A stretch of 64,000 nucleotides of DNA from Iocasia fonsfrigidae (GTDB taxonomy: Bacteria > Bacillota > Halanaerobiia > Halanaerobiales > DTU029): contig NZ_CP046640.1 in NCBI RefSeq assembly GCF_017751145.1, forward strand, positions 2,088,137 through 2,152,136, written 5' to 3'. Within the stretch, counting starts at the first letter, position 1. Every line of letters starts with the position of its first letter. Position numbers and translations under genes: made by a program. Under the pieces are notes generated by a model. That model was given only the letters and a program-made list of their open reading frames with translations. It was not told where the DNA came from and made no database searches. This document shows positions 2,860 through 30,260 of the stretch, piece by piece.

Positions 2860-4590
2860 ATGATGAACAAAGAACATCTTTATAAAGAATTAAACAATAT
2901 TGATGGAAGGGGTTATAAGGCCTATAGGCAGATTCAAAACAACTACTATGACTTTGGCAAATTTATAATCGGAATTCCTTATGTCCAGGGTGACCCCTAT
3001 GCAAGTCCATCCAGTGTAATTATAAAAACCAAGGGGAAAATAAAAGATTTTCCGGAGTGGCTCTTTGAAAATGAAATTAGGCTTCAAGCTGTTGAAGATT
3101 ACCTGACCAGGGTTATTACAAATAATATAAAAAAATATGCCCGTGGTAATAGAGGATCAGGAAAAAGTGGAAGGATAAATATTGTCCATACCGGGCAGGA
3201 AGTTATAAAAAGGACATCAGTAGAATTTAGCAGAGATTACATAGAAGCCCGTTTAACAGTCGGTCTACCAGCTAAAGGCAGACGAGTACTTGGACACCAG
3301 GCACAGGATCTCTTTTTTAAAGAAATACCTAAGATTGCTGAAAATAGCCTCTTTTTAGCCAATATAAATCAGCAAGCCTTAGAAAATCATGTGAGGGTTG
3401 TTGAAGATCAACATGTCTTAAGGGAATTATTGTCTTCACAGGGCTTGCTGGCCTTTATTGCTGATGGTTCTATCTTACCCCGGAGAAGTGGTGTTGATGA
3501 TCGGCCGCTAAGCAGTAATAAAGTCGTTCCCTTTCAATCACCTGCAGAATATGAATTAAGCTTTAAACTACCTCACAAAGGTGAAATCAAAGGTATGGGT
3601 ATTAAAGAAGGTATTACCCTGATAGTCGGTGGAGGTTATCACGGCAAATCAACACTTTTAAATGCCATTGAAAGAGGGGTTTATAATCATATCCCAGGTG
3701 ATGGACGGGAATATGTGGTTACCCGCCATAGTGCCTTTAAAATAAGGGCTGAAGACGGCCGCAGGGTAGAACGGGTTGATATCAGTCCATTTATAAATAA
3801 TCTACCCCAGGGAGAGACAACTAAAGACTTCTCAACAGATAATGCCAGTGGTAGTACATCACAGGCTGCCAATATAATAGAGGCCCTGGAATTAGGTGCA
3901 GGTGTTTTATTAATAGACGAAGATACCTGTGCTACTAACTTTATGATCCGTGATGCCAGGATGCAGAAACTTGTTGCAGATAAAAATGAACCGATTACAC
4001 CCTTTATTGATAAAGTTAAACCACTCTATAATGAACACAATGTTTCTACTATCCTGGTTGTCGGTGGAGCCGGAGATTATTTTGATGTTGCAGATCGGGT
4101 TATAATGATGAATAAATACAGACCTATTGCCGTAACTGAAGAGGTTAAAGATATAGCCAGTAAATTACCTACTAAACGTGAAAGTAAGCTTAATACTTCT
4201 TTCGGCCAGATATGTCAACGTATTCCAGAACCAGCAAGCATTAATCCACGGAAAAAGGGACGGATAAAAGTTAAAACCCATGGTATGGATACAATCCAAT
4301 TCGGGAGAGAAAATATTGATCTTTCTTACCTGGAACAACTAGTCAATCAGGAACAAAGCAAAACTATTGCCGATATCTTAACTTATGCCATTACAAATGA
4401 TATTATAGATGGGCAAAGAACTATTAGGGAGATACTAGACAGAATATATGAGCACCTCCAGCAGAAGGGCCTTAAGATTATTTCTCCTTTTAATAGTCCC
4501 GCTGGGGCTTACGTTTTGCCACGACCATATGAAGTAGGTGGCGCCTTAAACCGCCTGCGTTCACTTAAAATTAAAGATATTATCTACTGA
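2860..4590 (+). CDS. predicted ATPase of the ABC class (PF09818-like)
   Basis: A 576-residue soluble protein recognised as the stand-alone 'ATPase of the ABC class' family by its full-length layout. The P-loop variant VGGGYHGKSTLLNAIE lies near residues 255-271 and the Walker B segment GVLLIDEDTCATNFM near 347-361, with the typical DxDTCATNFMIRD follow-up. There are no transmembrane segments and no partner permease, so it is not a transporter subunit. The physiological role of the family is unknown. The ATG at 2860 has a GGAGG site (tacggaggttagat), although a second ATG follows at once. It is monocistronic: promoter just upstream, and the next gene is convergent after a 417-base gap. Confidence 0.85.
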   Translation: MMNKEHLYKELNNIDGRGYKAYRQIQNNYYDFGKFIIGIPYVQGDPYASPSSVIIKTKGKIKDFPEWLFENEIRLQAVEDYLTRVITNNIKKYARGNRGSGKSGRINIVHTGQEVIKRTSVEFSRDYIEARLTVGLPAKGRRVLGHQAQDLFFKEIPKIAENSLFLANINQQALENHVRVVEDQHVLRELLSSQGLLAFIADGSILPRRSGVDDRPLSSNKVVPFQSPAEYELSFKLPHKGEIKGMGIKEGITLIVGGGYHGKSTLLNAIERGVYNHIPGDGREYVVTRHSAFKIRAEDGRRVERVDISPFINNLPQGETTKDFSTDNASGSTSQAANIIEALELGAGVLLIDEDTCATNFMIRDARMQKLVADKNEPITPFIDKVKPLYNEHNVSTILVVGGAGDYFDVADRVIMMNKYRPIAVTEEVKDIASKLPTKRESKLNTSFGQICQRIPEPASINPRKKGRIKVKTHGMDTIQFGRENIDLSYLEQLVNQEQSKTIADILTYAITNDIIDGQRTIREILDRIYEHLQQKGLKIISPFNSPAGAYVLPRPYEVGGALNRLRSLKIKDIIY

Positions 4591-4676: not shown

Positions 4677-4923
4677 TTATCCACAATCATTTGAATTTAT
4701 CCACATTTTTCCGTGAGATATCCACAGTTTAATGTTATTTTCGCAAAATAAGTATTTTGCGAAGTTTTATTGAGAGAATATTCGACAGGGATTATCTTTT
4801 TTATTGTGCAAAACAATAAAATATTTTGTCTTTTAATTGTCATAAGGTATATATTATAGTAGTTTATATATTAATTAAGCTTTTTCTGTTGTCAAATCTT
4901 AAGATATAAACTCCTGTGGATAA
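4677..4923. other. cluster of DnaA-box-like sequences in an AT-rich gap
   Basis: The gap between 4590 and 5008 has no gene. It holds two perfect DnaA-box consensus nonamers TTATCCACA (4677-4685, 4697-4705), a one-mismatch copy ATATCCACA (4718-4726) and an inverted copy TGTGGATAA (4915-4923). The first three are spaced 20-21 bases apart, about two helix turns, in the same orientation. This is the layout used for cooperative DnaA binding. The flanking genes converge here and no dnaA or dnaN is visible, so a primary oriC is unlikely. Titration or regulatory binding is an alternative. Function is inferred only. Confidence 0.5.
4740..4763. repeat. 24-bp perfect palindrome
   Basis: TTCGCAAAATA and its exact complement TATTTTGCGAA flank a two-base centre (AG). 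It lies 13 bases after the third DnaA-like box. The near-zero spacer favours a dimeric protein-binding site over an RNA hairpin. The binder is unknown. Confidence 0.6.
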
Positions 4924-8935: not shown

Positions 8936-8954
8936 AAGAAGAATATTTTTTGAG

Positions 8955-9100
8955 ATTATGGATAACTCTAAAGGCCGACAAATATATTTACTTTCCTTGC
9001 CGCGCACTGTGGCGTCCTGCCTCTGCTTGCTGTCGAGAAATTGTCTTCCGGTGTCCTACCTCCAGACAATTTCTAGAGTCGTCCAGTAAATATATTTGTC
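8955..9100 (+). repeat. 146-bp structured intergenic element, copy 1
   Basis: This GC-richer block contains nested inverted repeats. The outer stem is 16 bp (8977-8992 with 9085-9100), a small CCGC/GTGG hairpin lies at 9000-9012, and the inner stem is 10 bp (9037-9046 with 9064-9073). A second copy of exactly the same length lies at 17386-17531 in opposite orientation. Stem bases that differ between the copies change in pairs, so both copies fold identically. Flanked by minus-strand genes; no coding potential. Identity unknown: it could be a small RNA, a MITE/REP-like mobile element or a protein-binding site. Confidence 0.8.
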
Positions 9101-9114
9101 TGAGTTAAGGTAGC

Positions 9115-9891
9115 CTAGTATGGAACAGAATAACTTTCGCCGTTTTTAAAAATTGTTATTTCTTTATAACCGATTTTCTGGGCTAAACTGGCTGCTCTTT
9201 TTATACCCTCACCTACTCTACCCGGGGAGTGGGCATCTGAACCAATTGTTATTGGTATTTTTAATTCATAAGCCCTTTTGAGAATATCTGTTGAAGGATA
9301 AAATTCATTTACTGGTTTATTACAACCATTGGTATTAATTTCAATAACAGTTCTGTTTTCCTTGATAGCCTGCAGAACCGGTTCAACAATCTCCAGGAGA
9401 TTTAAATCTACTGGACGGTTATTAAATATCTTTATTAAATCCATATGTCCTATAATCTCAAACAATCCTGAAGAAACTGCCTTTTCTACCAGGTCAAAAT
9501 AAGCAATATATAGTTCATCAATATCCCATTCTTTATACTCACTAACATATGCTGGATGGTCTATTTCCCAGTTTCCTACCCTATGTACAGAACCGATCGA
9601 ATAGTCTAAGGGAAACCTGTTTTTTACCTGCTTAATCCATTCTTCCTTATTTATTTTATAATCAAATTCTATACCAAGCCTTATTTTATCTGGATATTCA
9701 GCAGATAAATCCTCTAATATATCCCAGGAGATAGCATCGATATAATCATCATGGTCGGTAAAGCCTAACTGGGCAATACCCTTTTCTTGGGCCATTAATA
9801 AAAATTCCTTTAAATATTTATAAGAGTATTTATCTCTGATTTCCTGTTCCCCATGTCCATAAGGATGTGTATGATAATCTACTAAAAACAT
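9115..9891 (-). CDS. PHP-domain phosphatase, histidinol-phosphatase (HisJ/HisK)-like
   Basis: 258 residues with the PHP metal-binding motifs in order: DYHTHPYGHG at the N-terminus, FTDHDD, IGSVHR, IGHMDLIKI and GSDAHSP. These ligate a tri-metal centre that hydrolyses phosphoesters. The general layout resembles HisK-type histidinol-phosphate phosphatases, but no other histidine genes are near, so the substrate is open. The ATG has a GGGG site 6 bases before it. It is transcribed alone, with a terminator hairpin (8910-8935) beyond the structured element downstream. Confidence 0.8.
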   Translation of the reverse strand: MFLVDYHTHPYGHGEQEIRDKYSYKYLKEFLLMAQEKGIAQLGFTDHDDYIDAISWDILEDLSAEYPDKIRLGIEFDYKINKEEWIKQVKNRFPLDYSIGSVHRVGNWEIDHPAYVSEYKEWDIDELYIAYFDLVEKAVSSGLFEIIGHMDLIKIFNNRPVDLNLLEIVEPVLQAIKENRTVIEINTNGCNKPVNEFYPSTDILKRAYELKIPITIGSDAHSPGRVGEGIKRAASLAQKIGYKEITIFKNGESYSVPY

Positions 9892-10194: not shown

Positions 10195-11781
10195 ATGTTT
10201 AAGGTTTTAGTTAGTGACTATATCTCTGAAGCAGGCATTGAAATACTTGAAAAAGAAGCTGAAGTATATTTTAATCATCAATTATCTAGAGAAGAATTTC
10301 TGGATATAGTAGGTGATTATGATGGAATTATTATCAGGAGTTTCACCAGATTGGATAAAGAAGCACTTAACAAAGCTGAAAAACTAAAAGTAATCGGCAG
10401 GGCTGGTACAGGTTATGATAATATTGATCTTGAAGAAGCTAGCAAAAAGGGTGTAGTTGTTTTTAATACACCTACTGGTAATACAATTTCAGCTGCAGAA
10501 CATACTATTGCTTTATTACTATCACTATCAAGAAATATCCCTCAGGCCAATAATGCTTTACATAATGGTATCTGGGATAGAAAAAAATATAATGGAACAG
10601 AAGTCAGGGATAAAACCCTGGGTATTATAGGCCTTGGTAGGATTGGGAGTTATGTCGCTCAGTTTGCTCAGGGACTCGGTATGAAGGTAATAGCCAATGA
10701 CCCCTACCTAGCACCTGAAAAAGCAGAAAACCTAAATGTACCTTTATTAGATTTTGAGGAAGTATTACAAAAATCTGATTATATATCACTCCATACTCCC
10801 CTTACTGATGAAACCTTCCATATTTTAAGTCATAAGGAATTTGCTACAATGAAGGATGATGTCAGAGTATTAAATGTAGCACGCGGGAAAAATCTTGATA
10901 CAGAAGCACTTGTTGCTGCACTGAAATCTGGCAAGGTCGCCGGCGCTGGCATTGATGTATTTGAAGAGGAACCAATTGATGAAAATCATCCTTATTTTAA
11001 ATATAGTGATAAGGTAGTTGTTACCTGCCATCTTGGCGGTACTACTACAGAAGCAATGGACAATGTTTCTATTGCAGCTGCTGAACAGGTCTTATCTGTA
11101 CTTAAAAACGGTGGATTACCAGAATCACCGTTAAATATCTTTGCTATTAATTCCAAAGATATGAATAAAGCTAAACCATATCTAAAGTTAATTAATAAAT
11201 TAGGTAATTTTCTGGCCCACTGGAAAGGACATGAAAGGATTAAAAATATTGAGGTCGAATATGGTGGTGAAATAACTGAACAGCAATTAAAGCCTTTTAC
11301 AACTTCTCTGCTTAAAGATATCCTTGACCCTATCCTGGACCACAGAGTTAATCTGGTTAATGCCTATCTAGTAGCAAAGGAAAGGAATATTTCTGTAAAA
11401 GAAAGTTATATTGATAAACCAGATGGTTTAAATAATATAATCAAGATTAAAATTACTACTGCTCAAGATGAATATAGTATTGCTGGAACATCTCTTTCTA
11501 TCGGACATAGGGTTATAGAGATTAATGGGTTCAGGGTTGACCTTAATCTAAATGGAAAATTCCTGGTTGCAAATTATCAGGATAGACCAGGTATTATTGG
11601 TAAGGTAGGTACTATTTTAGGTGATAAAAATATCAATATCGCCAGCATGCAGGTCGGCCGCAAAAAAGAACAAGGGCAAGCAATTATGTTAATCCAAACA
11701 GATACCAAACCAAGTGATGAAATAATGTCCCAGATCAAAGATGAACTCAACTTAAATGAATTAACCTTCCTTGAAATATAA
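10195..11781 (+). CDS. serA: D-3-phosphoglycerate dehydrogenase, long form with ACT domain
   Basis: 528 residues, the length of long-form SerA, which oxidises 3-phosphoglycerate with NAD+ in serine synthesis. Visible features: the N-terminal substrate domain; the Rossmann motif GIIGLGRIGSYVA (near 145-155); the active-site Arg in NVARGK, Glu in FEEEP and His in CHLGGTTTEA (a Cys replaces the common Pro); the ASB-like region; and a C-terminal ACT domain (about 455-528, VANYQDRPGIIGKVGTIL), which binds serine for feedback inhibition in relatives. The ATG has an AAGGAG site at 10180. It ends at a bidirectional terminator. Monocistronic with a long leader. Confidence 0.95.
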   Translation: MFKVLVSDYISEAGIEILEKEAEVYFNHQLSREEFLDIVGDYDGIIIRSFTRLDKEALNKAEKLKVIGRAGTGYDNIDLEEASKKGVVVFNTPTGNTISAAEHTIALLLSLSRNIPQANNALHNGIWDRKKYNGTEVRDKTLGIIGLGRIGSYVAQFAQGLGMKVIANDPYLAPEKAENLNVPLLDFEEVLQKSDYISLHTPLTDETFHILSHKEFATMKDDVRVLNVARGKNLDTEALVAALKSGKVAGAGIDVFEEEPIDENHPYFKYSDKVVVTCHLGGTTTEAMDNVSIAAAEQVLSVLKNGGLPESPLNIFAINSKDMNKAKPYLKLINKLGNFLAHWKGHERIKNIEVEYGGEITEQQLKPFTTSLLKDILDPILDHRVNLVNAYLVAKERNISVKESYIDKPDGLNNIIKIKITTAQDEYSIAGTSLSIGHRVIEINGFRVDLNLNGKFLVANYQDRPGIIGKVGTILGDKNINIASMQVGRKKEQGQAIMLIQTDTKPSDEIMSQIKDELNLNELTFLEI

Positions 11782-11805
11782 AATTTAATTTAATTCTAAA
11801 TTCTA

Positions 11806-11842
11806 AAAAAGCTGTCTCATTTAAAATATGAGACAGCTTTTT
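11806..11842. terminator. bidirectional terminator between serA and the TPR gene
   Basis: Stem AAAAAGCTGTCTCAT (11806-11820) pairs with ATGAGACAGCTTTTT (11828-11842), with A and T runs on the outer sides. It serves two convergent genes. Confidence 0.9.
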
Positions 11843-11846
11843 TTAA

Positions 11847-12473
11847 TCAATCATCCCTTAATAGTTTCTTCACAAGACTACCAGCCCTATTCGCCTGGAA
11901 AAAAGCCTTGATATAATGACCGGTATCATAATATATAACCGCCAAAATTAGTCGTGAATGCTCATTCTCTTTCACTTCCAGGGCTTTTTCACAGGTTTCA
12001 ATAGCAAGTTCATTATTATCAATTTCCTTATATACCAGAGCAAGATAATTCCGTATCCAGATATTATCTGGTTCAAGCTCAATAATACGTTTAAAATAAT
12101 CTATTGAAATAGTATATTCTTTGTTAATCGAAGCACCGAAGGCAGCATAATTTAATGATAATATATCCTCACTCTGTAGAGTAATCCCCTCTAAATAAGG
12201 AGAAACCACCTGATTAAATTCATCTATTGAAACAGTATCCTCTATCTCTTCAAAGGTATCTAAGGCCTCTTCAATCATCCCCAGATTTGCTAAGGCAATA
12301 CTATAGCGAAATTTGGCCATGATATTATCAGGTTCTTTCTCTACCAATTGCAGACTATCTTCTTTGAGTCTATTCCAGTCTACTTTTTCTACTGCATATA
12401 TTTTGTTAATAGGCAAAGTTATCATAAAACAAAATAATAAAAGAAGAAAAATAGTTTTTTTAATTAATGCCAC
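11847..12473 (-). CDS. secreted or membrane-tethered TPR protein
   Basis: 208 residues with a hydrophobic signal or anchor at 7-27 (IFLLLLFCFMITLPINKIYA) and tetratricopeptide-like helices after it (e.g. NIMAKFRYSIALANLGMIEE, YTISIDYFKRIIELEPDNIW, NELAIETCEKALEVKENEHS). TPRs bind protein partners; the partner is unknown. It is last in the hfq-dapF-dapL-TPR series, 33 bases after dapL. The annotated GTG start overlaps a GGGGG site, so the exact start is uncertain. Ends at the shared terminator with serA. Confidence 0.75.
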   Translation of the reverse strand: MALIKKTIFLLLLFCFMITLPINKIYAVEKVDWNRLKEDSLQLVEKEPDNIMAKFRYSIALANLGMIEEALDTFEEIEDTVSIDEFNQVVSPYLEGITLQSEDILSLNYAAFGASINKEYTISIDYFKRIIELEPDNIWIRNYLALVYKEIDNNELAIETCEKALEVKENEHSRLILAVIYYDTGHYIKAFFQANRAGSLVKKLLRDD

Positions 12474-17228: not shown

Positions 17229-17385
17229 TTTTATCACCCCATTTTTAAGGATACATCTACATTATATGCATTAATAACAAAATATGTTAATTAGAAATTG
17301 GCTTCGCCATCCAGACTTAATCAATAATTATTAATTTTTACTTAGGAATATTTCTTACACAAAGTTAACTAATTTTAATAATCCA

Positions 17386-17531
17386 GACAGATATATTTGT
17401 TGGACGACTCTAGAAATTATCCGTAGGCAGGACGCTGGAGGATAATTTCTCGACAGTAAGCGGAGGTAGGACACCGCAGCGCACGACAAGGAAAACAAAT
17501 ATATCTGTCGGTCTTCAAAGTTATCCACAAT
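17386..17531 (-). repeat. 146-bp structured intergenic element, copy 2
   Basis: An inverted-orientation partner of copy 1. The outer stem is 17386-17401 with 17494-17509 (16 bp, perfect), the inner stem is 17413-17422 with 17440-17449 (10 bp, perfect). The boundary sequence AGTTATCCACAAT (17519-17531) matches AGTTATCCATAAT in copy 1. It includes a perfect TTATCCACA. It fills most of the gap between miaA and the AAA gene (17229-17591); an ORF reading across it is a by-product of its composition. See copy 1 for interpretation. Confidence 0.8.
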
Positions 17532-17591
17532 TTCTAAATCGCATAATTTACTTAATAACAAAAAAACAATCCGATTATAATTATCGAATTG

Positions 17592-30082: not shown

Positions 30083-30117
30083 TATACTCTTTAAACTAAT
30101 AAATATGTATCTCAGTT

Positions 30118-30241
30118 ATCTGCCTTTTATTGTCGACGAGGTTAGCTGGCGGGCTAGGAGTAAAAGGTCTCCCTTCAAAAGAATTAGCCCCATAGATTGG
30201 GTCCCCCGTTTCCATAAAAATGGAATTAGACCAGGATAGTT
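30118..30241 (-). ncRNA. c-di-AMP (ydaO/yuaA-type) riboswitch
   Basis: On the minus strand the segment carries the conserved aptamer blocks in order: GAAACGGGGGACCCA, GGGGCTAATTC, GAAGGGAGACC, and AGCCCGCCAGCTAACCTCGT. The last block is the hallmark of ydaO-class RNAs. These bind cyclic di-AMP and usually turn genes off through a terminator, here at 30051-30082. The promoter is visible at 30261-30289. The genes behind it (truncated trkH, ktrA) are K+ uptake genes, a known target class. Identification is by eye; no model was run. Confidence 0.9.
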
Positions 30242-30260
30242 TATTCAATTGTTGATTATT

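Follow-up and report, generated by a model that had tools for sequence, protein, structure and literature searches.

Strand-oriented repeats with IS91-type ends and a covarying two-hairpin core in Iocasia fonsfrigidae

What kind of element are the two hairpin-forming sequences that face each other in a 64,000-nucleotide stretch of the Iocasia fonsfrigidae chromosome (hereafter the window), and what has kept their fold and set their direction? The copies, at 8955–9100 (+) and 17386–17531 (-), are of the same length and mutually inverted, as a preliminary description of the window had reported, and both fold far more stably than shuffled sequences on either strand (z -3.8 to -5.4). That description took 146 bp as the natural unit and knew of two copies only; similarity runs on beyond either side, so that the 146 bp form the centre of a repeat of ~270 bp, and the genome (one contig of 3.93 Mb) yields at least 40 full BLAST matches and about 110 model matches, with long and coreless forms included. 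The long forms (207–266 bp) have extra hairpins inserted in the loops of a central core, and the short forms (48 bp) are without the core. These extra hairpin-forming inserts of ~50–70 nt recur exactly in the core's two loops (loci L081, L082, L097, L117 and other long forms), and some of them are common to different core families.

Copy 1 (8948–9115, +; left-flank match at genome position 2097084, which is window position 8948) comprises a truncated left end, the hairpin core and the start of the right flank, and encloses 8955–9100. Its 16-bp outer stem is formed by a left arm, GACAAATATATTTACT (8977–8992, +), and a right arm, AGTAAATATATTTGTC (9085–9100, +), between which lie core hairpin 1 (9002–9030, +; loop GTCCT) and core hairpin 2 (9037–9073, +), a 10-bp stem of GAAATTGTCT and AGACAATTTC with the tip GGTGTCCTACC. 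Copy 2 (17295–17561, -; left- and right-flank matches 2105646 and 2105431) is a near complete, IS91-ended non-autonomous repeat that adjoins the terminator T-run of a neighbouring gene, and its core, both outer arms included, spans 17386–17509 (-). A DnaA-box-like sequence, TTATCCACA (17521–17529, +), lies in its terIS-like left end, and its right end is an oriIS-like hairpin, TGGCGAAGCCA (17299–17309, -), the same hairpin that ends an IS91 transposon on the right.

The structure is kept through sequence change. Across 40 genomic copies, 97.4% of cells are paired compared with 92.7% in shuffles, 111 cells are changed on both sides compared with 41 in shuffles, and sliding the partner arm drops the paired cells to 35–47%. 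The consensus from these forty copies has 40 pairs, 12 of them with changes on both sides. Selection on single-strand structure, which had been suggested from the two window copies, is supported by this excess of double changes. The compensation read from those copies also stands for three pairs in the 16-bp outer stem and two in the inner stem; over the 40 genomic copies, not every change is compensated, and ~2.6% of cells are unpaired. A small CCGC/GTGG hairpin, likewise thought to be conserved through changes, shows no covariation above shuffles, and the covarying hairpin at this place is hairpin 1 with its GTCCT loop.

The suspected mobility of the element is supported by a transposon that stands behind several of the repeat copies and whose ends are those of the repeat. 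The left end common to both reads AGGAAA.TATG...TTGTGGATAACTT (AGGTATAGGAAATTATG...TTTGTGGATAACTT in the transposon), the common right end is GGGTGGCGGAGCCATTTTGTTC, and a look for terminal inverted repeats found the transposon's two ends dissimilar to each other. Its product of 441 aa matches the IS91-family transposase model NF033538 with 286 bits (cut-off 125), contains the domains Y2_Tnp and Zn_Tnp_IS91 (PF04986, PF14319), and bears the motifs PHIH (HIH at 172) and YIGRY at 253; the combination of HUH nuclease, two catalytic tyrosines and zinc-binding domain is that of the IS91 family. Eight near-identical copies of this autonomous transposon are present, several in tandem, and all eight intact copies sit behind another copy. 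All share one left end, and each bears GTTC on the right (8/8), so that the oriIS end lies beside the GTTC/CTTG target of the family; GTTC is also found in most repeats. Homologues in Halanaerobium, with ~65% identity, share this left end, DnaA-box sequence included, as well as the right-end hairpin and GTTC, and start directly after terminator T-runs. The repeat has both ends in common with an autonomous element of the same genome, as a non-autonomous derivative does, and probably represents a rolling-circle transposon of the IS91 family in non-autonomous form. Searches against phages, plasmids and viral contigs gave no match.

Two open reading frames near the transposons are recorded here. 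At locus L124, an 89-aa zinc-ribbon-like ORF (3627–3893, +) overlaps the end of the IS91 transposase gene, with a similar reading after the transposase gene in the Halanaerobium homologues, and at locus L168 a tyrosine-recombinase (XerC/D-like) ORF (11340–12260, -) adjoins an IS91 copy near the terminus.

Hairpin repeats of this kind could also be REP/REPIN or IS200/IS605-type elements mobilised by a RAYT (Y1) transposase, a mobiliser that the preliminary description had suggested looking for. The genome does contain a single full, RAYT-like Y1 transposase gene (locus L098, 9603–10361, -) 2 kb from the nearest copy; no flanking repeats are seen around it, the repeat ends match IS91 instead, and RAYT relatives are absent from the relatives richest in cores; G038, G039, G047, G049 and G050 all have cores and no RAYT relatives. 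We therefore rejected this mobiliser on co-occurrence; the repeats do not qualify as REPs or REPINs with a RAYT, and we consider such an origin highly improbable.

The direction of the repeats agrees with that of replication in almost every copy. Nearly all copies lie on the plus strand before ~2.10 Mb and on the minus strand after it, and cumulative GC skew reaches its maxima shortly ahead of the window (2.074 Mb) and at its beginning (2.093 Mb), which places the orientation switch at the terminus, in the window and just before it. Counted over 1.27 Mb of sequence and the genome-wide model matches, 79 of 81 IS91-ended repeat loci run along the replication fork, the exceptions lying at 778.9 kb and, in the terminus zone, at 2082 kb. 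In a second core family, in which no IS91 ends were recognised, 11/12 copies are polar (the copy at 1014705 is an exception), and in a third family the core is inverted within a host repeat whose own direction is unchanged; hence it is the host repeat, not the core, that carries the polarity. A search for a dif site in the terminus found none. Separately, three exact DnaA boxes (TTATCCACA) lie within 250 bp at window positions 4677–4923, where 0.8 would be expected in the whole window; this cluster is close to a lexA-like gene, at a GC-skew turning point near the terminus.

Orientation might instead track transcription, with elements inserted after intrinsic terminators and facing the same way as the genes, which are themselves mostly leading (90.4% of 1057 ORFs, by simple ORF calls). 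The direction of the upstream gene is indeed matched by 85/94 repeats, a terminator lies just upstream of 16/40 non-tandem left ends compared with 4/40 at 400 bp further up, and the T-runs before the Halanaerobium copies fit the same account; with genes 90% leading, most of the polarity could arise from insertion behind co-directional terminators. Replication, however, is matched by 92 of the same 94 repeats, and outside the terminus zone 77/78 IS91-ended repeats are polar compared with the leading share of genes (P 0.0035), an excess that is modest because that share is already so high. Outside the terminus zone, 12 loci have a flanking gene at odds with the element, and 11 of these elements stay replication-oriented. 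Window copy 1 runs opposite to both neighbouring genes, but lies near the terminus. Gene orientation accounts for much of the polarity, not for all of it, and transcription as the sole guide seems rather unlikely to us.

Strong orientation would also be expected of a repeat that selection maintains as an oriented chromosomal site, for replication, DnaA binding or segregation, rather than one that is merely mobile. The DnaA-box-like sequence of the left end is exact in 34/54 cases, and the left-end motif that contains it is conserved across the class (13/59 class genomes, 0 in reversed controls). This sequence belongs to the transposon end itself, however, and copy number is very uneven among relatives, tandem and truncated copies occur, and the IS copies are near-identical and recent, all of which makes an oriented site very unlikely.

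We next consider the core, ~115 nt with two hairpins, which occupies the middle of a 16-bp AT-rich palindrome within the repeat. A core model built from diverse cores and run on 59 class genomes found it in 15 of them, with at least 63 copies in G047 and 36 in G039, and across species 17/19 tested pairs covary (91% paired compared with 67% in shuffles). A strict core pattern, searched in the genome collection, matched only Halanaerobium saccharolyticum. The core occurs in either orientation in different, unrelated host repeats. The host repeat of Iocasia is a variant form of the derivatives known from the IS91 family. In G047 the core is housed in a ~590-bp repeat whose ends are different, and is found there on both strands and not polar. 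This G047 repeat (loci L239–L256) has the ends TTGATATATTGTG and ACAATATATCAA and hosts one or two cores, and no clear target duplication was found for it. Three genomes with cores (G038, G039 and G047) have no close IS91 transposase; the core itself is therefore independent of that enzyme.

A structure that covaries class-wide, with conserved loops, could be an expressed RNA carried on transposons, for example a CsrA sponge with two CAGGACG-type reverse-strand loops, and the reverse-strand hairpin loops do contain GGA. In the main family, however, the strand with these GGA loops is opposed to replication and to local genes, and in the third it is aligned with both. Rfam 15 gave no match to the core at gathering or relaxed thresholds, in line with the preliminary description, which could not match the element to a known RNA or REP family. 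An RNA function of this kind seems unlikely to us. Elsewhere in the window, a c-di-AMP riboswitch lies at 30116–30242 (-) (Rfam RF00379, 71.9 bits).

Where the core is missing, the repeat shows an uninterrupted palindrome, GACAAATATATTTGTC, and in cored repeats a 10-bp AAATATATTT is duplicated around the core, so that the coreless forms look like precise core losses between 10-bp direct repeats. We also considered the coreless repeats as pre-insertion sites, a reading made less likely by the one direction of all cores in the main family, since entry into a palindromic target would occur both ways. This single direction argues for one capture followed by repeated precise loss. Our favoured reading is that the core is a passenger hairpin, probably kept for folding in single-stranded intermediates. 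More tentatively, it could be a new small hairpin element that enters palindrome centres in unrelated transposable repeats throughout the class, its own loops receiving further hairpin inserts, independently of any one transposase.

Taken as a whole, the data are probably best explained by non-autonomous IS91-family copies, oriented by insertion of single-stranded DNA, with the core as passenger. IS91 moves via single-stranded DNA circles (PMC5714925), and the family favours GTTC or CTTG targets and leaves no duplications (PMC6052338). In Iocasia, the two-tyrosine HUH transposase would cut the right end (oriIS) at its GTTC, one strand would be displaced up to the left end (terIS), and the displaced strand would be joined to the single-stranded lagging-strand template, which would set the orientation of the new copy. 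For IS200/IS605, insertion into the lagging-strand template is what gives direction (PMC6006769), and by extension to IS91 we infer such insertion to be the best mechanism for the polarity. The core would have been captured once per repeat family, would be lost again through slippage between the AAATATATTT repeats, and may have retained its shape because it must fold while the element is single-stranded.

Target choice of IS91-type rolling-circle elements is poorly known, and their ISCR relatives are associated with resistance genes. With ~100 oriented derivatives and a DnaA-box-like end, coupling of IS91 to the replication fork becomes directly testable, and in the covarying core, unrelated repeats across an entire bacterial class share a structured module so far undescribed. 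Oriented IS elements in Firmicutes, reportedly described by Gomez et al. in 2014, are said to show a family-specific orientation bias relative to replication, and the repeats described here resemble them in having such a bias.

In their enzyme and ends, the elements are like IS91 and ISCR, with a two-tyrosine HUH transposase bearing a zinc domain, apparently no terminal inverted repeats, a terIS-like end before the gene and an oriIS-like end, closing on GTTC, after it; this is the layout of ISCR elements, with terIS before the gene and oriIS after (PMC13393415). Incomplete mobile derivatives are also on record for the IS91 type, as IS801 fragments (PMC3189936). Unlike IS91 and ISCR, the left end here has a DnaA-box-like sequence class-wide, ~100 short derivatives carry an inner hairpin module, and polarity relative to replication is nearly complete, a feature for which we found a description for IS200/IS605 and not for IS91. 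Single-stranded DNA intermediates, hairpins and lagging-strand insertion liken the repeats to IS200/IS605 and its PATE, REP and REPIN derivatives (PMC6006769), from which they differ in enzyme class; the IS200/IS605 copies of Halanaerobium hydrogeniformans have no strand preference (10/22; PMC7290912). As covarying palindromic intergenic repeats, they are also akin to the GTAG- and CGTC-tagged REP families, the CGTC type of which has no dedicated enzyme known (PMC3733652), but whereas those REPs are single hairpins of 20–40 bp, the core here comprises two hairpins in ~115 nt inside an outer stem.
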